Shown here: piece after piece, positions 4,876 through 16,388 of the stretch
Numbering within the stretch: the stretch's first letter is position 1
Layout: every line of letters starts with the position of its first letter
Source of the DNA: Herpetosiphon giganteus
GTDB lineage: Bacteria; Chloroflexota; Chloroflexia; Chloroflexales; Herpetosiphonaceae
Assembly (NCBI RefSeq): GCF_016907925.1
Contig: NZ_JAFBCZ010000009.1
Location: 124,001-188,000, forward strand
Direction: 5' to 3'
Length of the DNA stretch: 64,000 bases
Notes under the pieces: generated by a model
Database searches by the model: none
What the model was told of the DNA's origin: nothing
Seen by the model: the letters and a program-made list of their open reading frames with translations, nothing else
Made by a program: the position numbers and the translations under genes

Positions 4876-7527
4876 ATGACGCATATTCTTAATCCAATCT
4901 TACGCACTGTACTCAACCAGTTTGATCAGCCTGCTGAGATTGGCACAATCCAACCGTTGGCAACCCCAGCCTTACTTGGGCATTGGTATGGTCTGTATGG
5001 AGCATATCCGAATGAGCGGCAACGGGGCCAAATTATTCAATTGGTGGTTGCCTATGCCTTGCTTGGCGAAACCCAAGTGCGGCCCGATCAAACTCACGAT
5101 TTAGCTGAGATCGTGCAACAATTGCGCGCTGGCAATCGTGACCAGCGCTTAGTCTATTGGCGCTTTTTGCACGAACACAAACTGCCGGTGCATGTGTTAA
5201 TCGATGAGCTTGGCTTGGCCAAAGCAACCTTCCATCGCGATATGAAAGATCGTTTGCCCTTGATTTTGGATCAGGCTGCTGATTGTTTGTTGAGCATTTT
5301 GCAGCCAGCGCTCCAATTGGAACGGCCACCAGTGCCAGCTCAATTGTATGGCCGCGCTGAATGGCTGGCCGAAGCCCATGCAATGCTCAAGCATGAACAG
5401 CATGTTTGTATCATTGGGCCAACGGGCGTTGGCAAAAGTGCTTGTGCTGCAATGCTCGCCAATACATGGCAAGGGCCAGTATTTTGGCTGACGCTCCTGC
5501 CCGATTTGAATGATCAGGTTGAAAGCTGTTTGCCCTTGATCGGCGCATTCTTACAGCATCATGGGGCCTATAATTTGGCTCAACATTTGGCAATTGAGGG
5601 CGGCAAACTCAATAGCAATGTGGCGTTGGGCTTAATTCGGCGCGATTGTGCCAGCCTAGCAACTCCAGCATTGTTTTGTCTTGATCAAAGCGAGGTTATG
5701 CTCAAGCAGCCGCAAGCCCACCATAGCGCCTTGCACTCATTTTGGCGTGCTTTAGCCGCAATTCCCAATGTGCATGTGCTGATTATTGGCAATCGCGTGT
5801 TTAGCGACGATCTACCAGTGCTCAGCCTAGATCCGTTGGAAAGTAGCGCGTTTCGGGCATGGTTTGATGCAACCACAACCATTCAACCAGATTATCCATG
5901 GGAGCAATTCCTGGCGCTGATTGCTGGCAACACCCATCTAATGCGGATTGTGATGGTGTTGATTCAGCAGGAACGAAGTTTGGCGGCAATTTGCGCCATG
6001 CTTGAAGCGCATCCAGGCGTTAGCTCCTTGATCGAACGGATTATCACCATGCTTGGGCCAAGTGCGCAACAATTATTAACCATTTTGGCCAGTTTTCAGC
6101 AACCGGTTCCACGCAGTTTATGGCCAAGCAGCGATCTCCAACAACTTGAACAGTATCAATTGCTGCAAGCAGGCTACCGCGATACGTTGGAGCTGTGGCC
6201 GTTGCTGCGCAAACACTATTGGCAACAGCTAAATAGCGAACAACGCCAACCATTGCATGAACATGCAGCCCAGGTGCATGCCTTGCTTGGTCAATGGACG
6301 CTCGCTGCCGAACATGCGATTGCCGCAGGCGATTATAGCCAGGCAATTGTTTGGTGGTTTCCCCAACGCCATAGCGAAATTCGGGCTGGCTATTTTGGCC
6401 GGATGCTGCGCATGCTGCAATTAATTCCACTTGATCAAGTACCAGCCCGCGAGGCCCAAACTTTGGCAATTGGTCAAGCAGAGTTGGCACGCTTTATTGG
6501 CAGCTACGATCAAGCCCGAGCTGGCTTAGCCGCCGTTTCGCACACGGGCAGCGATTCGCTGCGTGCCTATATTCACCAACTCGAAGGTGATTTGTGGGAA
6601 GCCCAAGGTCAAATTGAGCAAGCAATGCAGAGCTACGAGCGGGCAATTACGATTTTGGATACCAACCACTATCATCAAGAAGCAATTTTATATGTCAAGC
6701 GTGGTTTGATGCACCTCAACCATGAGCGCGATTTCGAAGCTGCGCACCAAGCAGCGGCCAAAACCCATTTCATTGCTGCCTTGTTGAGTGGCGAAATTGC
6801 CGACGAGGAAGGCAACTACGATCGAGCCTTGGAGGGCTATCAAACTGCGCTTGAACATGCCTGTACGCTCAACGATCAGGCGCTGCAAGCGCGCGCCCAT
6901 GCGAGTTTAGCGATTGTGCATGCACGCAATGAACGCACCGAAGCCATTGAGCATTTCAATTTTGCCATTCGTTATTATCAATCAATTGGCAACAATGTGC
7001 GTGCTGCGCGCAACCAAAGCAATTTGGCCTATTTTTTAGGCGAGATCAACCAACCCCACGAGTCAATCACGATCGCCCAAGAGGCCTATAGCTTCTTCAA
7101 GCAGATTAATTCGCGCTTTTGGATTTCGCTGAATACGATGACCTTGGCCAATGCCCATGTGGCGCTCAATCAGTGTGATGATGCTGAGCGCTATGCCCAA
7201 GAAGTGCTGCATTATGAAGAAACGGCGCACGTGCCCTTTGGGGTGTATATTCTAGGTCGGGTTGCCAACCTCAAACAAGAATTCGCCATGGCTGAACGCT
7301 ATTTACATCAATCAGTCCAACTTAGCCAAGCGATTCAGGATCGCTTTATGGAAGCCAAAGTTTGGCGCGAGCTGACCAAACTTTTTTATACAACCCAACG
7401 CTATCCTGACGCACAGCATGCACTTACCCAAGCAAGCGCTTTGTATCAACAATTGGGCTTAAACAAAGAGCTGGATCGAATTCAACACTTGGCACAACGC
7501 TACAATGGACAACTGATGGTCAACTAG
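4876..7527 (+). CDS. P-loop NTPase/TPR regulator with ATFHR-type N-terminus
   Basis: An 883-residue protein of the MalT/AfsR-like STAND layout. The N-terminal domain (about 1-140) has a helix-turn-helix-like segment with ATFHR at 117-121, the signature shared with the three genes at 11.2-16 kb. A P-loop NTPase follows (GPTGVGKS, 181-188, Lys187), and from about 430 the protein is helical with TPR-like repeats to the end. STAND proteins act as signal-dependent switches, with the repeats binding an inducer or partner; the signal here is unknown. The start was moved from 4759 to 4876, because GAGGAG precedes that ATG and the extra 39 residues are not domain-like. No LuxR-type DNA-binding domain is visible at the C-terminus. 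A strong terminator follows. Confidence 0.8.
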   Translation: MTHILNPILRTVLNQFDQPAEIGTIQPLATPALLGHWYGLYGAYPNERQRGQIIQLVVAYALLGETQVRPDQTHDLAEIVQQLRAGNRDQRLVYWRFLHEHKLPVHVLIDELGLAKATFHRDMKDRLPLILDQAADCLLSILQPALQLERPPVPAQLYGRAEWLAEAHAMLKHEQHVCIIGPTGVGKSACAAMLANTWQGPVFWLTLLPDLNDQVESCLPLIGAFLQHHGAYNLAQHLAIEGGKLNSNVALGLIRRDCASLATPALFCLDQSEVMLKQPQAHHSALHSFWRALAAIPNVHVLIIGNRVFSDDLPVLSLDPLESSAFRAWFDATTTIQPDYPWEQFLALIAGNTHLMRIVMVLIQQERSLAAICAMLEAHPGVSSLIERIITMLGPSAQQLLTILASFQQPVPRSLWPSSDLQQLEQYQLLQAGYRDTLELWPLLRKHYWQQLNSEQRQPLHEHAAQVHALLGQWTLAAEHAIAAGDYSQAIVWWFPQRHSEIRAGYFGRMLRMLQLIPLDQVPAREAQTLAIGQAELARFIGSYDQARAGLAAVSHTGSDSLRAYIHQLEGDLWEAQGQIEQAMQSYERAITILDTNHYHQEAILYVKRGLMHLNHERDFEAAHQAAAKTHFIAALLSGEIADEEGNYDRALEGYQTALEHACTLNDQALQARAHASLAIVHARNERTEAIEHFNFAIRYYQSIGNNVRAARNQSNLAYFLGEINQPHESITIAQEAYSFFKQINSRFWISLNTMTLANAHVALNQCDDAERYAQEVLHYEETAHVPFGVYILGRVANLKQEFAMAERYLHQSVQLSQAIQDRFMEAKVWRELTKLFYTTQRYPDAQHALTQASALYQQLGLNKELDRIQHLAQRYNGQLMVN

Positions 7528-7654: not shown

Positions 7655-9397
7655 ATGATACAAAATCCAAAACCCATAAAGATTGATCGCAACGTTGGTG
7701 CATTGTTGCTCTTTGGAGTGGCATTGCTGCTGTATAGCATAACCCTGCTGCCAGGCCTCGGTGGCGGCGATACTGCCGAATTTCAACGGGTTGGCCCAAG
7801 CCTTGAGATTGCGCATAGCACTGGCTATCCACTGTATAGTATGGTGACATGGTTGTGGAGCAAAGTCCTGCCATTTGGCAGCGTTGCTTGGCGGGTTAAT
7901 CTCTTTTCGGCTTTTGCTGCTGCCCTGAGTTTAACGATCGTTGGCCAAATTGCGCTTAAACTTGGGCTAGCTCAACGCTGGGCTTGGGCTTGTGCAGCCA
8001 TTTTAGGGCTATCGGCAACCTTTTGGCAGCAAGCAACTCATGCCGAAATTTATGCCTTTGCAGTGTTATTGCAGCTTGGCACAATCTGGCTGATTCTGGC
8101 TTGGCGACAGCAGCAGGTTGGCTTTTGGTGGCTTGGGTTCGCCGCAGGCTTGATGCTTGGGCATCATCGCAGCAGCCTCTTTTTGCTGCCATGGATGCTG
8201 ATCGCCGCTTGTTGGCAACGACGACCAACGGTACGTCAAATGCTGCTGGCAATCGCAGCGGGATTAATCAGTTTTGTACCCTATTTGTATATTGTTTGGC
8301 GTGCACCTGCTTGGCAAAATGGTTGGGCGGTGTTGGCTGAGTATCTGCTTGGCAGTGCTGGTGGCGCGTGGTTTGACCCACAACGAGCAGCCAACCAAGC
8401 ATGGCAGCGGTTCGTTGCAGTGCAAGTTGGGCTTTTTGGCCCGCAATTAACTTGGCTCGGCTTTGGCTTGGCGTGTTATGGCTTCTGGCAGTGTTGGCGA
8501 CAGCAACGGCCAATTGCCATCATGCTTGCTGGTAGTTATTGCAGCATTCTGGGCTTTTGCTTAGCCTATTTCGTCGACGATTTGGCGGTTTTTGGGCTTG
8601 GCGCGTATGTTGTACAAGCCTTGCTGATTGGCTTTGGATTGGCGTATCTGCCGTGGCCACGCTGGAGTTTAGTCGGAGCTTTGGCTATGAGCGGATGGCT
8701 GGCATGGCAAAACTTGGCCCAAATTCAAGCCAGCAATACCGCCCAAATCGAACAAATTGCCCGCCAGCGCTTGGCCGAGCCAATTGCCGCCCACAGCCTC
8801 GTGATTGGCGATGGCTGGAGCATCGAAAGTTTGCGCTATCTGCAAGCGGTTGAGCAGCAACGCCCCGACCTCGAATTTAGTTTTCAGGCCGATCAGCAAC
8901 GTATTCGCGATCAATTGGCCCAAGGCCGCCAAGTCTATGCGTTGCAAGCGATACCCGAGTTGGCTTTGCAGCATCGTAAACTTGGCGATTGGTGGCAGAT
9001 TGAAAACAAACCACTGCAATTTAGCCAACAGCTCAACATTGGTTGGCACAATGGAATTCAATTAACTGGGCTGGAATTACCCAGCCATGCCCAAAACCAA
9101 CTGCTGGTTGCCCTGCGCTGGCAAACCAAGCAACCCTTGCCAAGTTTGATTCGCTTTATCCATGTGCTCGATCAAGCTGGCAATTTGGTAGCCCAAACTG
9201 ATAGCCCAACCAACCCTGCGAGTCAATATTGGCCACTTGATCAAGCCCAATCCGACCTACTAGCGATTGATTTGGCAGCGTCACTGCCAGCAGGTCGCTA
9301 TAAAGTTATTGTTGGTTGGTATGATCTCAGTGGCCAGCGCATGCTACTTGATGCAGCGAACGATACCTATGAACTAGGCCAGATTACTATTGATTAA
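7655..9397 (+). CDS. DUF2723-type membrane protein (GT-C glycosyltransferase fold)
   Basis: A 580-residue integral membrane protein. The N-terminal half (about 12-350) has roughly ten membrane helices, and the first periplasmic loop carries GGGDTAEF followed by a long Gly/Pro-containing stretch, the hallmark of the DUF2723 family related to protein O-mannosyltransferases. The acidic Asp-Thr-Ala-Glu loop is where GT-C enzymes place the catalytic acidic residue. The C-terminal third is soluble, with a beta-rich domain from about 450 to the end, probably extracytoplasmic. The acceptor and sugar cannot be read from sequence. The start is the first ATG; no strong ribosome binding site is visible. 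The 3' end overlaps the convergent SGNH hydrolase gene by 11 bases. Confidence 0.75.
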   Translation: MIQNPKPIKIDRNVGALLLFGVALLLYSITLLPGLGGGDTAEFQRVGPSLEIAHSTGYPLYSMVTWLWSKVLPFGSVAWRVNLFSAFAAALSLTIVGQIALKLGLAQRWAWACAAILGLSATFWQQATHAEIYAFAVLLQLGTIWLILAWRQQQVGFWWLGFAAGLMLGHHRSSLFLLPWMLIAACWQRRPTVRQMLLAIAAGLISFVPYLYIVWRAPAWQNGWAVLAEYLLGSAGGAWFDPQRAANQAWQRFVAVQVGLFGPQLTWLGFGLACYGFWQCWRQQRPIAIMLAGSYCSILGFCLAYFVDDLAVFGLGAYVVQALLIGFGLAYLPWPRWSLVGALAMSGWLAWQNLAQIQASNTAQIEQIARQRLAEPIAAHSLVIGDGWSIESLRYLQAVEQQRPDLEFSFQADQQRIRDQLAQGRQVYALQAIPELALQHRKLGDWWQIENKPLQFSQQLNIGWHNGIQLTGLELPSHAQNQLLVALRWQTKQPLPSLIRFIHVLDQAGNLVAQTDSPTNPASQYWPLDQAQSDLLAIDLAASLPAGRYKVIVGWYDLSGQRMLLDAANDTYELGQITID

Positions 9398-10639: not shown

Positions 10640-11161
10640 TTAATCATTAACAGCAAATACCCCCCAACAAATTGGATTACGGGCGCGTTGATCGTCCAAC
10701 ACAAACGCGCGCAGAGTTGCCGGAAGTTGGGCATGCTGCCAAGCACACTCTTGGCGACCAGCTTCATCCTCAGTGCCCTTGGTTGCTGCTGCACACACCG
10801 CCTTAATTGCATAGGCCGCAGCACCAAGATTATGAGCGGCCACATGGGCAACTAAGGCCGCCTGCGCTGCCGCAAAGCCAGCAAAGCGCGCCGCCCCGCT
10901 CAAACCACGCGCAGCAGCATTGGCATGGCCGCCAGCAGCGCGGGCTTCGCTCATACTAAGCTCGCCGCGCACCCATGCCTGAAGTTGAGCTAAGGCATGG
11001 TGGGGCCGATGATCGTTGGGCTGTGCTTGCTCAAAGTATTCGAGCACATGGCCAGCACACGCAGCCGCCCACAGCGCAAGCAGTCGATGGTCATCGTCGC
11101 TGAGCGTGCCTCCACGGCGAATTGTAATTAGGCGCTGGTCGCGCTCCTTCGGCAAAATCAT
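10640..11161 (-). CDS. Imm-5-like putative immunity protein
   Basis: A 173-residue, strongly Ala- and His-rich helical protein. The region with GGTLSDDDHRLLALWAAACA followed by DHRP and several AAAHA-type helices resembles proteins annotated as putative immunity protein (Imm-5-like) or, misleadingly, exonuclease SbcC in actinobacteria. GGAG precedes a double ATG at 11164/11161, which decides the start; an extension to 11266 would run into the upstream gene. It is the last gene of the regulator operon, 58 bases after the 11220-12035 gene. No polymorphic toxin is visible nearby, so a role in toxin immunity is not supported by context. The family assignment is from memory of sequence pattern. 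Confidence 0.55.
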   Translation of the reverse strand: MILPKERDQRLITIRRGGTLSDDDHRLLALWAAACAGHVLEYFEQAQPNDHRPHHALAQLQAWVRGELSMSEARAAGGHANAAARGLSGAARFAGFAAAQAALVAHVAAHNLGAAAYAIKAVCAAATKGTEDEAGRQECAWQHAQLPATLRAFVLDDQRARNPICWGVFAVND

Positions 11162-11219: not shown

Positions 11220-12035
11220 TCATGGGCTTGCTGACGGCACGCCAATTGGCACGAGAAACTCACCATACAGTTTCAAACGCTGGCTACTTGTACAAATCAC
11301 AACCAACTTCGGGGCAATTTCGAGCAAGCGCCGCAACCAGAGCGGATCATCAGGATGAGTTTGATAGCCAGCTAAAATTAATAAAACTTGGCGGGCTTGA
11401 AATAGTTGCAATAACTCCACCGGGTTTGGTTTGGTCGGCGCTTGAATGCTTGCCATTAAATGCTGGCTCAGTGCTTGCGACGGGCTGCCAGTTAAATCAA
11501 GCCATAGACAACCATCATTCAAGCTAGCGCCAATCTGTTGGGCAAAATTCAACACTAAAGCTTGTTGGCTTGGCTGATCGTCGCCAACCACATTGATCAA
11601 GCGCACGCCTTGCTCAAATAAGTGCAGCATGCGTTGATACGCCACCCCAGCCCGATCAACTGGTGGAGCAGCAGGCAAGCGGGTGGCTTGTTGGATTTGG
11701 GCAAACCACGAGCGTGACGTTTGCAGTACTGGTTTTTGATTGATGCCAGAGGTCAAACTATGCAACAGTTTGCGCTGATGACGATGAAAGGTTGCTTTAT
11801 GGATGTGCAACTGTTGCAAATAGAAATCGACTGAAGCCCCTGGCTGAGCCAAAACCAGCTTTAACAACCGCTGCTCAGCAGCATTGAGAGGCAGGCTTTG
11901 CAACAACGAATAACATTGTTGAATCCCACCACAAGCCTGCACAAATTGGGCAAGTTGCGGTTGATTGGCAATCTGTTCTGGGGCAAAAATTAATTCTGCG
12001 ACAAGATCCTCGGTAAGTTGCATCGCATGTCCCAT
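11220..12035 (-). CDS. ATFHR-domain protein with degenerate NTPase domain
   Basis: A 271-residue protein paralogous to the two genes upstream. Residues 1-100 match their N-terminal domain, including ATFHR at 81-85. The following NTPase-like region keeps the fold pattern, but the P-loop is replaced by GDDQPSQQ near 151-158, without the Gly-Lys-Ser/Thr, and Walker B reads VLLILAGYQ without the acidic residue. It therefore probably cannot hydrolyse ATP and ends before any TPR region. It may be an accessory or inhibitory partner of the full-length regulators, or a decaying copy. The start at 12035 has no strong ribosome binding site; the ATG at 12023 (GGGA six bases upstream) is an alternative. 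Confidence 0.7.
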   Translation of the reverse strand: MGHAMQLTEDLVAELIFAPEQIANQPQLAQFVQACGGIQQCYSLLQSLPLNAAEQRLLKLVLAQPGASVDFYLQQLHIHKATFHRHQRKLLHSLTSGINQKPVLQTSRSWFAQIQQATRLPAAPPVDRAGVAYQRMLHLFEQGVRLINVVGDDQPSQQALVLNFAQQIGASLNDGCLWLDLTGSPSQALSQHLMASIQAPTKPNPVELLQLFQARQVLLILAGYQTHPDDPLWLRRLLEIAPKLVVICTSSQRLKLYGEFLVPIGVPSASP

Positions 12036-12090
12036 CTATTCAAGCCAAAATGTCTATCAAGTTCGTCTAGATCAGGCCTGATCAAGCGCA

Positions 12091-14643
12091 TCAAAATCCA
12101 TACATGAGCTTAATATAATAATTCATCGTCGCGTTAAAATCGTTCTTTTCTAGGCAAAAATCAGGATCAGCAACAAAATCAACATCATCACAATAATGAC
12201 TGAGCACGATCTTGGTTTGGGCCAAAAATTCACGTTCATTCCAACGCATTGCATACGTTTCAGTCTCAACAACATTCAAGAAATACCGATAAATTGCGAA
12301 AGCAATCAGGTAGTATTGCTTAATTATCGCAACCAAGATCAATGACTCACAGGTAAAAAATACTTGTTCGATAAAAACCGTATTTTCTACAGCAACTGGA
12401 TATAATATCTTGATACAGCGATCAATCCCTTGTTCATTTTTCAAGAAAAAGTATACTTTGATTAACCGAAAGTAGAGATTATAATCACCAAGATAGAGTG
12501 GAATATGTTGCATATGTTCTTCTTCTGCAATCAAATCAACTAAAATCTTTTCAGCTTCATAATATTTTTCTTGGTAAATATAAATCAACGATATATTTTT
12601 CATCGATGCTGTAAAATCAAGGTAATATTTCATTTGCTTAAATTTGACTGCCAAATCCTGAAACATGAGATACGATTCATTCAATTTTTTAGATTTCCAC
12701 ATAAGATTAGCATAATTAAACATTGGCCCTAAGACATTAGTTTCATCACCAATCTGCTGATAGAGCGTAACCGTCGCTAAGAACATATCGCCAGCTTCTT
12801 TTAATTTATTCTGCTCCATCAATATTAATGCATAAAAGTTTTTAGTTTTCGCTTCAAGGGTATGAAATCCATGCTTTTGAGTCAAATCAATCAGATAATG
12901 AATTATCGCTAGCTGCGAATAATCTGGTCTATTTTTCGAACAGAATAAAATAGCTGTGTATAATACCCTGCATTGCAAATATGGATTATCGGTTATCTTG
13001 AACAAGCTTGGAATAATTGGTTCGATCCATGATTGAGCTTCTGCAATAAAGTGAAAACCCCACCAGAAACGATACAAAACAGCTAACAATTGCCAGAAGC
13101 GCGTCGGATCAGCTTCCGCTTTGGCTGTCTGCAAGGCTAATTGAATATTTGGATAGGCTTGAAACGTGGAAAGATGCCACATTGCATGGTCAGGGCCAAT
13201 TAAGTATTCCTCCGTCGGGGTAACCCAGGTAATATAATAATCACAATGCTGTAAACGTAACGTATGGCGTTGCTCAGCACTCAATAATTGCCATGCATAG
13301 TGGCGAATTGGCTCTAAAATTGTATACGGATGATGAACAACATCATTGCGGATACTAATTAAATGATTATCTAAGAGCAAACTTAAATGATCTTCCATTA
13401 AATCATGGTCAAGACCAACTAACGCTGCTGCCGCTGCCACATTCCAGCCTGCCTGAAAGACGCTTAACTGACGCAAAATTGCTTGGGTTTCAGCAGGCAA
13501 TAACCGATAACTCCAGCCAATCGTTGCCGCCATCGTTTGGTGGCGCACATCCACATCGAGCGGCCCTTCGGCAAGCAACCCAAGATCGCTGCGAATTGCC
13601 GCCACAATTGAATCCAGAGAATATTCAGCTGCCCGAGCCGCCACCAACTCAATTGCCAGCGGCAACCCCGCAACATGGCAGCAAATCTGACCAACGTGGT
13701 TTAGTAAGTGCTGATCGCTGCGATCAATCAATCGCACCGCTTCTAGCCGATCAAGACAGAGCTGGACTGCTGGATAGTGGCTGACGGGTTCCATGCTCGC
13801 TGTAAGAGCAGGATACGCCAATACATCGACTTCGTAGATAACTTCATTCGACACATTTAAACGCACCCTGCTGGTCGCAAGCACTTGGAGCTGTGGTACT
13901 TCAGCAAAAAGGCTAGCGAACCACTCACCAGCCGCCGGAAGATGCTCCAAGTTATCAAGAATCAGCAAACTGCGCCGATTTTCAAAAAACTGTTGAATCG
14001 CGTGCTCGATCGATTGCGCATCACTAAACGATAGTTGCAACTGCTGCATACAGGCCAAGCCAACATCTTCAACGTGTTGCACATCGGCAAAACGTAAGAC
14101 ATGCACTTCATCACAGTTAGGACCAAGCCAATGCTGCGCCAGCTCAAGCGCCAAGCGAGTTTTGCCAACCCCACCAGTTCCAACCAAACTAATCCAGCGG
14201 CTTCCGTTGGTTAGCAAGGTCGACAACGCCTCAAGATCTGCTTGGCGGCCCACAAAACTCGTCCATGATCGCACAAGACTTGTGGGAATAAACGCAACAG
14301 GTTCAACCGCTGCGGGAATAAGTTCAGGCTGCCTCGGATTGGTATTCAGAAAACTGCTTAAGCTGTGACAAAGGGCATTTTGCTGGCGATGAAACGTCGC
14401 ATGATGGATTGCCAACAGATCGGTATAGCGCACGACCGACGCTTCAGGATGGGCCAAAATAACCTCAAGCACCCGTCGTTGCTTGGATTTGAGCGGAAAT
14501 TCAAGCAATTGCTGGCGCAGCTGCTGCAACCCACCAGCTTCGGCAATCACGGTTGACCATGTGGGGTGTTGAGATAAACGCTGGGGATAATGCAAAAGAT
14601 CATGGACAATCGCATCGTTCCATTCGGCTGATACTTGATTCAT
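12091..14643 (-). CDS. STAND NTPase/TPR regulator with ATFHR N-terminus
   Basis: An 850-residue AfsR/MalT-like regulator. The N-terminal ATFHR domain (1-100, signature 82-86) is followed by an NB-ARC-like NTPase with Walker A GTGGVGKT (155-162, Lys161) and Walker B LLILD (Asp230), then a winged-helix and from about 440 a long helical TPR-like region. The C-terminal third is richer in Lys, Ile, Tyr and A+T than the rest, which may mark a different origin. The start overlaps the upstream gene's stop by ATGA (14640-14643), so translation is coupled. It likely senses a ligand through the repeats; DNA binding by the N-terminal domain is inference. It is the central gene of a four-gene operon. Confidence 0.82.
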   Translation of the reverse strand: MNQVSAEWNDAIVHDLLHYPQRLSQHPTWSTVIAEAGGLQQLRQQLLEFPLKSKQRRVLEVILAHPEASVVRYTDLLAIHHATFHRQQNALCHSLSSFLNTNPRQPELIPAAVEPVAFIPTSLVRSWTSFVGRQADLEALSTLLTNGSRWISLVGTGGVGKTRLALELAQHWLGPNCDEVHVLRFADVQHVEDVGLACMQQLQLSFSDAQSIEHAIQQFFENRRSLLILDNLEHLPAAGEWFASLFAEVPQLQVLATSRVRLNVSNEVIYEVDVLAYPALTASMEPVSHYPAVQLCLDRLEAVRLIDRSDQHLLNHVGQICCHVAGLPLAIELVAARAAEYSLDSIVAAIRSDLGLLAEGPLDVDVRHQTMAATIGWSYRLLPAETQAILRQLSVFQAGWNVAAAAALVGLDHDLMEDHLSLLLDNHLISIRNDVVHHPYTILEPIRHYAWQLLSAEQRHTLRLQHCDYYITWVTPTEEYLIGPDHAMWHLSTFQAYPNIQLALQTAKAEADPTRFWQLLAVLYRFWWGFHFIAEAQSWIEPIIPSLFKITDNPYLQCRVLYTAILFCSKNRPDYSQLAIIHYLIDLTQKHGFHTLEAKTKNFYALILMEQNKLKEAGDMFLATVTLYQQIGDETNVLGPMFNYANLMWKSKKLNESYLMFQDLAVKFKQMKYYLDFTASMKNISLIYIYQEKYYEAEKILVDLIAEEEHMQHIPLYLGDYNLYFRLIKVYFFLKNEQGIDRCIKILYPVAVENTVFIEQVFFTCESLILVAIIKQYYLIAFAIYRYFLNVVETETYAMRWNEREFLAQTKIVLSHYCDDVDFVADPDFCLEKNDFNATMNYYIKLMYGF

Positions 14644-15956
14644 AGCGGGCTATCTTTCCTGCTGCTTAGGTTAACGATTTGGTGCTGAATGCAGCTTGGC
14701 ATGGCATACCACACAGCCCAATTAACCAAAAGATGCTTGGTTTGGGCTTCATGCAAACCCGCCTGAATCTGTTGAGCAGACAATCCTTGCAAGCCAGCTA
14801 GTTCACGCTGGTTGAGCCAACGCGGCAAGCGGGCTAATGTTGTGAGCAGCTGTTGGGTCGCTGGTTGCAGTGTCGTATAGCGCAGCTTAATTAACCACGC
14901 CAAGCGCTCCTCGCTCGAAGCAATTGGCTGAAGTTGCGCCGCCAAAGTCGTCAAATCATAGTCAATGCTTAGGCTGGCCACTACTTCGAGCGCCAAGGGC
15001 AGGCCTTCTATGAGCTGGCAAAGGCGGCTTGCGGCCTCAACGTGGGCAGAATCATGCAACGCGAGCGGCTGAAAATGGCTCAAGCGCTCGCCCAAAAGTT
15101 GTAAGCTAGCATTTGACCCAAGGTCAACAGATTGATCGGCGGGCACAAGAGCGCTTAAGCCGTCAACATGATGCAAACGCTCTTGGGACACATGCAAGCG
15201 CTGCGTGCCGGTTGCCAACACCCGCACAAACGGCGCAGCCTGCAAACATTCAAATAACCAAGCAGCCAACTCAGGTTGATTCAGATTGTCTAAAATGAGC
15301 AACATATGGCGTGAGCTAAAATAGGCTTGCAAGCGTTGTTGCGCATCTAGGTGCGGGGAATCAAGCCCTAGCTGAGCCAAAAAATCGTGGGCCAGCGTTG
15401 CTTGCGTGGCTCCACTGGGTATATGCAACAAGCCAACGCCATCACGGAAGATTGGGCCAACACGCTGGCTAATTTCCAAGGCCAAACGAGTTTTGCCCAC
15501 CCCAATAGTGCCGATTAAGCTAATCCAATCGCAGCCTTGATCAAACAATAATTGAATTCGTTCAAGGTCGAGCATGCGCCCAAGGAAACTCGTTGTGGGC
15601 ATTTGGAAACCAATTGAGGGTGCTGGCTCAGGAGTAAGCTCGATTTTGGGCGCTGGCAATAGGCCACTGAGCCGCTGACAAAGCGCATTTTGCTGTCGAT
15701 GAAACGTGGCAGGGTGAATCGCCAACACATCACAATAATATTCAACCGAGGCTTCTGGCTGGCTGATCATCAGATTCAGCAAGCGTAATTCTTTGGTTTT
15801 AAGCGGGTAGGTTAATAGTTGCTGGCGCAAATGGCGCAAACCGCCAAGTTCGGCAATAAACAGCGACCAAGCAGGATGCGCCAAGAGGCGTTGCGGATAG
15901 TTTAAGAGGCTATGCACAACCTCGGCTGTCCATTCTAAAGTATCGGGTGGGGTCAT
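14640..15956 (-). CDS. STAND NTPase with ATFHR N-terminus, no repeat region
   Basis: A 438-residue protein very close to the downstream paralogue in the N-terminal domain (ATFHR at 83-87 within IHPATFHRQQNALC) and NTPase domain (GTIGVGKT, 149-156, Lys155; a Walker B-like LLILDN). It stops just after the NTPase/winged-helix part, so it lacks the TPR sensor. It is the first gene of the operon and is coupled to the next by a 4-base overlap. A short and a full-length regulator from one transcript could form mixed oligomers, or this could be a split copy. The ribosome binding site at this start is weak, so the start is moderately certain. Confidence 0.75.
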   Translation of the reverse strand: MTPPDTLEWTAEVVHSLLNYPQRLLAHPAWSLFIAELGGLRHLRQQLLTYPLKTKELRLLNLMISQPEASVEYYCDVLAIHPATFHRQQNALCQRLSGLLPAPKIELTPEPAPSIGFQMPTTSFLGRMLDLERIQLLFDQGCDWISLIGTIGVGKTRLALEISQRVGPIFRDGVGLLHIPSGATQATLAHDFLAQLGLDSPHLDAQQRLQAYFSSRHMLLILDNLNQPELAAWLFECLQAAPFVRVLATGTQRLHVSQERLHHVDGLSALVPADQSVDLGSNASLQLLGERLSHFQPLALHDSAHVEAASRLCQLIEGLPLALEVVASLSIDYDLTTLAAQLQPIASSEERLAWLIKLRYTTLQPATQQLLTTLARLPRWLNQRELAGLQGLSAQQIQAGLHEAQTKHLLVNWAVWYAMPSCIQHQIVNLSSRKDSPL

Positions 15957-16058
15957 AGCAGGGCTGCCCTATCGTTGCCAAAGCGAGCAAAGCTAAAACC
16001 ATTCTCATCGGTTGGCTCTCACACCAACCTTCGCCTCTCATCCACCCTCACTATACGC

Positions 16059-16388
16059 TTAGACCAACAAACCGTTGCGCTTCAAGAAACCACTCAAAGC
16101 TTCATCGCTTGGTTCGGTGATAACGGTACCACGATCAAACGAGCGCGCTTCGCGGCCTGCTGGCAACGGTGCTGGCTCTTCAAAAGGCAAATTACTGCCA
16201 GCTTCGGCAACCACAATCGTGGGCACGCTGCGATAGCCAACCCAGCCCTCGACCAACGCACCAGCAGCGTCATCTTGATCGATATTAATTTGGGTGTAGG
16301 CAACCTGATTGGCTTCTAAAAAACGTTGCGAACGAGCAAGATCAGGGCAAAAACTCGTTCGACCATAGACGACAACATGTTTACTCAC
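16059..16388 (-). CDS. Glutaredoxin-like protein with single active-site Cys
   Basis: A 109-residue thioredoxin-fold protein of the glutaredoxin type: beta-alpha-beta start with SFCPDLARS, then a VPT cis-Pro segment (YRSVPTIVV). Only one Cys is present in the CPDL active site, so it is of monothiol type. After the VPT motif an unusual Pro/Glu-rich insertion replaces the usual end of the fold. The start is the GTG at 16386-16388, since GGAGG lies six bases upstream. It is divergent from the cyclase gene at 16519. A distant relative lies at 50075-50434. Confidence 0.75.
   Translation of the reverse strand: MSKHVVVYGRTSFCPDLARSQRFLEANQVAYTQINIDQDDAAGALVEGWVGYRSVPTIVVAEAGSNLPFEEPAPLPAGREARSFDRGTVITEPSDEALSGFLKRNGLLV

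Follow-up and report, generated by a model that had tools for sequence, protein, structure and literature searches.

Herpetosiphon genes for a probable family of STAND regulators with sensor-less and P-loop-less companions and a sensor half that appears to be exchanged at some loci

Several bacterial regulators of the STAND class have been described in which a nucleotide switch controls transcription. MalT of Escherichia coli and GutR of Bacillus are activated by an inducer together with ATP, and in AfsR, a large Streptomyces antibiotic regulatory protein (SARP), the nucleotide-binding oligomerization domain (NOD) and the tetratricopeptide repeats (TPRs) inhibit the DNA-binding part until ATP binding relieves the inhibition (PMC10936776, in the parts of that article drawn on here). 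Here, we analyzed three adjacent genes, named A, B and C, in a 64,000-nucleotide stretch of DNA (the window; C9:124001-188000 of a 6.16 Mb genome, own genome or G000) from Herpetosiphon giganteus, a member of a genus that is filamentous and, judging from paper titles, predatory. With fair confidence, A, B and C can be read as members of a family of STAND (NB-ARC) regulators, named the ATFHR family after a motif in their N-terminal domain, in which B would be the complete switch and the sensor would be exchanged modularly at some loci. The genes and their parts are as follows (window positions):

14640-15956, minus strand: gene A, 438 aa; ATFHR domain and NB-ARC NTPase with intact P-loop, without TPR sensor, TSR motif of B replaced
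12091-14643, minus strand: gene B, 850 aa; ATFHR domain, NB-ARC NTPase and TPR sensor, the putative full-length receptor
11220-12035, minus strand: gene C, 271 aa; ATFHR domain and half an NTPase without P-loop
14344-14625, minus strand: ATFHR domain of B, residues 7-100 (profile, model secondary structure, and Pfam helix-turn-helix (HTH) matches of relatives)
13324-14286, minus strand: predicted nucleotide-binding domain (NBD), helical and winged-helix parts of B, about residues 120-440 (NB-ARC Pfam match; Apaf-1, NLR and 8bob matches)
12199-13314, minus strand: predicted TPR-type helical repeats of B, residues 444-815, the apparently exchanged module (model, fold match, conflicting trees)
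13294-13416, minus strand: border of identity change in B, about residues 410-450 (sliding identity to relatives)
14158-14181, minus strand: P-loop of B, GTGGVGKT (motif)
15489-15512, minus strand: P-loop of A, GTIGVGKT (motif)
11562-11585, minus strand: degenerate P-loop position of C, GDDQPSQQ (alignments)

The closest described systems resemble B in some parts and differ in others. As in AfsR, an N-terminal DNA-binding domain (predicted for the ATFHR domain), a STAND NTPase and a C-terminal TPR sensor follow one another; however, AfsR begins with an OmpR-type domain and a BTA domain instead of the unnamed domain of ~95 residues found here, and no sensor-less or P-loop-less partner genes are described for AfsR in the parts of the article drawn on (PMC10936776). 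Structural comparison matched B with PDB entry 8bob (maltose system by title; Z 21.8), which likens it to MalT. MalT has a C-terminal LuxR-type HTH, whereas no GerE (LuxR HTH) match was listed for B, and no Trans_reg_C or BTA match was listed for A, B or C (Pfam scan to E <= 10, in which the HMMER filters remove most weak matches). The best Foldseek match of B, PDB 6mfv (E 7e-13), is a STAND protein with a TPR sensor, but the alignment starts at B residue 119, with the ATFHR domain outside. Apaf-1, CED-4 and plant NLRs share the NBD-helical-winged-helix fold, but they are eukaryotic and carry other N-terminal effector domains. Fungal NLRs likewise have variable C-terminal repeat sensors and assorted modules; theirs vary in repeat number under positive selection, whereas the ATFHR sensor halves differ as a whole and no such selection was shown for them (PMC4986451, in part). 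Finally, STAND sensors diversified by diversity-generating retroelements (DGRs) are also bacterial, C-terminal, rapidly changed and found in multicellular hosts, but they arise by error-prone reverse transcription of C-type lectin domains, and no reverse transcriptase (RT) was found near the ATFHR loci of the own genome (PMC10907252, in part). STAND regulators and NLR-like sensors are thus already known as kinds. Neither the ATFHR family nor sensor exchange in bacterial STAND genes was found in the open-licence PubMed Central (PMC) literature by title or start of abstract; within that scope, the domain family, its conserved sensor-less and P-loop-less companions and the apparent exchange of sensor modules at fixed loci are new. 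By analogy, the exchange is reminiscent of NLR immune receptors, and STAND switches connect bacterial regulation with the immune receptors of animals and plants.

The two halves of B have different histories. The comparison set consisted of six Herpetosiphon genomes, G000 to G005, which the flanking genes split into two groups (G000/G004/G005 and G001/G002/G003). Three topologies of five B sequences were tested, G002 having two tandem B genes (G002a and G002b). The tree of the N-terminal half (putative HTH plus NTPase) placed G000 and G005 together and rejected both sensor groupings (approximately unbiased (AU) test, p 1.0e-6 and 2.8e-7), while the tree of the TPR half joined G005 with G002b and G000 with G002a and rejected the other two topologies (AU p 7.9e-93 and 3.0e-154). 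The best free tree of the N-terminal half also joins G001 with G002b (support 89), and identity between the B proteins of G000 and G005 falls near residue 410-420. Matches to the sensor of B elsewhere in the own genome reach only 21-28% identity.

A similar pattern was observed at two further loci. The locus named C21 in G000 was recognized by its shared flanks; in the stretches examined, two copies are present in G000, G004 and G005 and a single copy in G001-G003. Its tandem copies are 98, 97 and 97% identical over the first 420 residues (G000, G004 and G005) and 64, 62 and 55% identical past residue 440, and at the nucleotide level a block of high identity runs from the gene start to about codon 450-460. 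Since synonymous divergence (dS) also jumps, from 0.03-0.38 in the first part to 0.98-1.35 in the second, the border does not reflect amino-acid selection only. Each half of C21 rejects the tree of the other (AU p 1.3e-5 and 8e-70 with seven sequences), and dN/dS at this tandem locus is at most 0.26, so positive selection is not seen. The C26 locus is single-copy and was found in four of the six genomes, with flanking mechanical open reading frames (ORFs) 78-100% identical between G000 and G002. In all four between-group pairs, its first half is 81-84% identical and its second half 28-29%, as against 94 vs 94% and 90 vs 69% within the groups. On the other hand, at the control locus C20b, where the family set has a single member from each genome and the upstream neighbour is shared (89-98% in all five relatives), the ratios of half-divergence were 0.7-1.3 in 15 of 15 pairs. 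The HTH-NTPase and TPR halves have conflicting histories at three loci, and the comparisons indicate that some loci, but not others, exchange the TPR sensor half as a module, because the halves differ at B, C21 and C26 while those of the control are nearly equal. Recombination would be the process that moves the sensors. In draft genomes, near-identical tandem copies could have been assembled chimerically; this concern is smaller for the single-copy C26 locus and for B of G000 and G005. Exchange at some fixed loci beside a non-exchanging control makes modular receptor evolution testable in cultured species.

Genes A and C form stable orthologous groups. A was found in six of six genomes (433-442 aa) and C in five of six (271-277 aa), in both cases without inner stops. 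Their ratios of nonsynonymous to synonymous substitutions (dN/dS, NG86 method) were 0.19-0.37 for A (15 pairs) and 0.14-0.28 for C (10 pairs), compared with 0.01-0.11 for the flanking glutaredoxin and cyclase genes and 0.09-0.15 for two other genes of the flanks. Conservation is strong over the last ~35 residues of C. The P-loop motif GK[ST] is present in 51 of 59 family sequences from the loci examined; the eight without it are the five C orthologs and three frames that lack the NTPase. At the P-loop position C reads GDDQPSQQ, and by eye its Walker B aspartate is out of place in all five aligned orthologs, one of which has an aspartate one residue later. The loss of the P-loop in C is conserved under purifying selection, and C as a pseudogene was set aside on the strength of its five stop-free orthologs and dN/dS of 0.14-0.28. 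Such a conserved paralogue without a P-loop makes it possible to ask, in a natural system, whether STAND assemblies are regulated by dead NTPase subunits.

NB-ARC matches of B (38.4 bits) and A (26.9 bits) exceed the Pfam cut-off of 23.5, no NTPase family was found by Pfam in C, and the weak Pfam TPR matches at the end of B are backed by the model and the fold search. Residues 119-599 of B were aligned with Apaf-1 (Z 25.5, root-mean-square deviation (rmsd) 4.8, 412 residues aligned), residues 119-759 with the STAND-TPR protein 6mfv (Z 23.4, rmsd 6.0, 518 aligned) and residues 121-578 with 8bob (rmsd 4.1, 368 aligned). Residues 115-268 of C match the Apaf-1 NBD (Z 12.5, rmsd 3.2, 146 aligned), and CED-4, plant NLRs, Avs4, TnsC and ORC/Cdc6 lie within 1 Z of that match. 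From its motifs and model, C appears to be a homolog with a P-loop NTPase fold that is not an active NTPase. A has kept its P-loop in six of six genomes and reads TGT, TGC or TAT where B has TSR (five of five); we take the TSR arginine to be the sensor-1 residue of this NTPase class. By sequence, the NTPase features are thus lost step by step along the series B, A, C: A keeps the P-loop without TSR, and C lacks both the P-loop and the Walker B aspartate.

The N-terminal domain of ~95 residues is common to A, B and C, and its profile was built from 68 matching stretches, among which a gene can recur where loci overlap. The domain occurs at nine places in the own genome (E <= 0.001, one of them a fragment with stops), in 11 of 41 relatives (E 0.01) and in 11 of 400 Chloroflexota genomes (E 0.001), three of which belong to two other families; the named relatives include Herpetosiphon llansteffanensis, H. 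aurantiacus, H. geysericola and one Herpetosiphonaceae metagenome-assembled genome. On these profile matches, the ATFHR family appears mainly in Herpetosiphonaceae. NB-ARC/TPR relatives of B are commoner than the domain (29 of 41 relatives at E 1e-10), and a first search of genome contigs with whole B as query returned zero relatives. When 22 family domains were scanned singly against Pfam (E up to 1), HTH_24 was matched by seven and HTH_23 by five; the best HTH_24 match had E 5e-5, one member reached 23.2 bits against a gathering score of 21.9 (residues 48-86), and, by name, 15 of the 25 families shown (34 in all) were HTH or bacterial-regulator models. The model of B (mean predicted local distance difference test score (pLDDT) 80.2, block means 78-90 across residues 11-100) contains helices at residues 10-18, 20-24, 27-35 and 39-46, then 53-64, 70-77 and 81-101, and the model of C (mean pLDDT 86.7) has the same helix order. 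The ATFHR motif (B residues 82-86) opens the last helix, which is where HTH proteins have their recognition helix. H80, A82, T83, H85 and R86 do not vary among 19 aligned proteins, and T83 and R86 are still at least 90% conserved in a wider set of 22. The domain thus probably ends in an HTH with ATFHR opening the recognition helix, and on this ground A, B and C are read as regulators predicted to bind DNA.

The initial annotation knew no named family for this domain, and regarded a match to a well-characterized DNA-binding family as contrary evidence. For the window proteins, no Pfam, NCBIfam or PADLOC match beyond chance was found, in line with that view, whereas the second half of the domain looks HTH-like (HTH_24 in 7 of 22 family domains), so that the weak matches of relatives partly connect it with a known DNA-binding family. 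The fold-search matches of B and C cover little or none of the N-terminal domain and are uninformative on its fold. Against PDB sequences, the top matches of the profile were two kinesin-light-chain-like TPR entries (E 4e-4 and 0.01) and dystrophin (0.01), which were taken for composition or chance; four regulator-type entries (E 0.18-1.2) covered the HTH region wholly or partly.

Several other occurrences of the domain were noted. A fragment at G000:C17:86497-86724 contains three TAG stops and is likely a dead family member. Two frames may represent other architectures: in L170 (G006) the domain is C-terminal in a frame of 342 residues, and in L169 (G008) it lies in a 123-residue frame at a contig edge. 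In another Chloroflexota family, L130 and L132 (483 and 461 aa) combine the domain with NB-ARC and intact P-loops, without TPR as in A.

The arrangement of the genes makes an A-B-C operon plausible. On the minus strand, the order is glutaredoxin, a leader, A, B, C and an Imm5-like gene. In the own genome, A and B overlap by four bases (ATGA, 14640-14643) and C starts 55 bases beyond the end of B, and among relatives the A-B and B-C gaps range from a 4-base overlap up to 54 bases. No terminator-like site was found at the A/B or B/C border, and the region count of seven such sites against 7.9 expected is that of chance. By BLASTP, A and B share 38% identity over 429 columns (best E 2e-68), A and C 30% over 261 columns (E 8e-27) and B and C 27% over 284 columns (E 2e-21), in each case across the domain and NTPase, and the end of A, aligned to B residue 429, lies near the end of the winged-helix part in the NTPase module of B. 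The three ORFs of 11220-15956 and their division into a full member with TPRs (B), a short one ending after the NTPase (A) and a degenerate one without GK[ST] (C), as initially annotated, are borne out, A and C being stable orthologous groups; the coupled operon is plausible only.

A mechanism can be proposed on this anatomy. The TPR half of B would sense a ligand, such as a small molecule, a product of prey or competitors, or phage, and the NBD-helical-winged-helix half would alternate between a closed state with ADP and an oligomer with ATP bound, in which the clustered N-terminal HTHs may bind DNA and change transcription. A would be a B-type switch minus the sensor and the TSR arginine, and C an HTH domain on half an NTPase stripped of its nucleotide-binding motifs. 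Both would most likely act as stable modulators, A as a sensor-less co-subunit and C as an ATP-independent competitor or DNA anchor, and would be separable, non-obligate parts; the hetero-oligomers with inactive subunits proposed in the initial annotation may form, but as optional mixed assemblies. Some loci would change what is sensed by exchange of the TPR half, while the HTH-NTPase half would stay locus-specific and alike between tandem copies. Sensor exchange favours a changing partner.

Several observations weigh against this reading. The domain of B itself, scanned singly against Pfam at E up to 1, gave zero HTH matches, and those of its relatives are weak and nearly all below the curated cut-off. 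The sample consists of only six genomes of a single genus, and four of these assemblies are split into 50-170 contigs. G004 has lost B, and between its A gene and the Imm5-like gene only decayed remnants of C are left; in G003, B ends after ~85 residues, with C whole and A kept. Since A thus stands alone in G004 and is accompanied in G003 by C and a truncated B, an obligate A-B-C trio is unlikely. Single-pair ratios of half-divergence of 0.5 at C20a, 0.5 at the locus termed 'long' and 1.8 at C3 indicate that exchange is absent at some loci. No dN/dS above 0.52 was found among the computable stretches of the cassette (some values for parts of B are undefined, dS being saturated), and queries with 13 proteins identified no closer source of the exchanged sensors within the family set. 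Between G000 and G005, A, B and C are 83, 63 and 81% identical, compared with 88-98% for four flanking genes; between clades, the flanking gene 7655-9397 also drops to 73-75%, so that rapid cassette divergence shows best inside the clade. In G003, A and the B stump are separated by an IS605-type transposase. IS605-type TnpB genes were observed inside or beside the cassette in two relatives (L043:9893-11050 and L042:4212-5354).

What the family senses can be read in two ways, both compatible with the STAND regulator reading and sharing its anatomy. The stronger of the two, although still tentative, is that these are metabolic or developmental regulators of the MalT/GutR/AfsR type which sense small molecules or protein partners, with exchange tracking nutrients or prey. 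The part order of AfsR (DNA-binding domain-NOD-TPR; PMC10936776, in part) and the structural match of B to the maltose-system entry 8bob speak for it, as does the predatory habit of the genus, whereas no metabolic gene set was seen travelling with the cassette in the six compared stretches, and a dedicated metabolic switch would not normally be expected to have its entire sensor replaced at one locus. Rather doubtful, on the other hand, is the view that they are NLR-like immune or non-self receptors, the TPR halves of which recognize phage or competitor proteins and the oligomers of which set off a response by way of the HTH, serving as a transcriptional alarm or as a protein adaptor. It would account for sensor change at fixed loci, for a cassette that outpaces its flanks within the clade (A 83, B 63 and C 81 vs 88-98%), for the loss of B and C in G004 and the truncation of B in G003, and for the Apaf-1/NLR fold, and STAND sensors of multicellular bacteria can be diversified (PMC10907252, in part). 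Nevertheless, A, B and C have no PADLOC model at E <= 1 (2023 library), no killing effector domain is among the Pfam matches, the flanks are, by limited annotation, conserved genus-wide genes and not other defence genes, and no positive selection was shown. With about the same low probability, the loci could form a bacterial receptor array in which non-self or prey recognition is renewed by TPR-half swaps, the output is transcriptional, and sensor-less and ATP-dead paralogues act as modulators from the same operon. If true, this would be an NLR-like system acting via gene regulation instead of cell death.

It is improbable that A and C are functionless, tolerated relics of recombination between tandem STAND genes. 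They are truncated B-like genes adjoining B in an unstable cassette, and their dN/dS exceeds that of the glutaredoxin and cyclase flanks (0.01-0.11), but A persists in six and C in five of six genomes at near-constant length, without inner stops and with dN/dS of 0.19-0.37 and 0.14-0.28, and the end of C is strongly conserved. Even less probable is that the sensor half only evolves faster through point changes: this could lower identity in the C-terminal half, but synonymous divergence jumps at the border (0.03-0.38 to 0.98-1.35), the half-trees conflict and the control halves are near-equal in 15 of 15 pairs. Variation of the C-terminal half by a DGR, as described for STAND sensors of other multicellular bacteria (PMC10907252, in part), is very improbable and was rejected for these loci in the own genome, where the RT profile matched only on contigs C5 and C4 (the latter below cut-off) and not on C9, C20, C21 or C26, and where the change covers the entire half, synonymous sites included.

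A fourth protein (4876-7527) had also been assigned to the family, which was confirmed for A, B and C by BLASTP and the profile but not accepted for this one. Although it has an NTPase and TPRs by Pfam, it scored only 7.4 bits against the domain profile, over model positions 48-84 of 94 (the HTH half only), with E values, in a search of this one sequence, of 3e-4 for the domain and 5e-5 for the entire protein, and its BLASTP matches to A, B and C (E 0.004-0.9) are short or TPR-region pieces only. It is 95-96% identical in G004 and G005, the two relatives showing it, unlike the cassette. A weak HTH signal of its own was observed at residues 96-142 (SpoIIID-like; E 0.003 in NCBIfam, 0.055 in Pfam). 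Judged by sequence, it may carry an HTH that is not demonstrably an ATFHR domain.

The neighbours of the cassette are as follows:

16059-16388, minus strand: glutaredoxin gene, upstream of the leader and A
15957-16058, minus strand: leader, glutaredoxin stop to A start, 102 bases (conserved in 6/6 genomes; hairpin 16010-16029)
10640-11161, minus strand: Imm5-like gene after C (PF21805, E 3e-33)

The leader has a mean column identity of 89% across all six genomes, although A itself is only 55-83% identical to the own copy, and it occurs once in the own genome. Its hairpin at 16010-16029 alone gave z -3.87, and a 138-nt stretch with the leader gave -1.95; a 61-nt stretch at the A start codon, which lies in a predicted stem, gave 0.17. 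None of the 32 predicted leader pairs was compensatory, and Rfam gave no match, either at gathering scores across the window or at E 10 around the leader. The leader is at most a candidate structured RNA. The Imm5-like gene is an orphan; no match was seen at its place in the compared stretches of G001-G003, and it follows C in G000 and G005 and A in G004.

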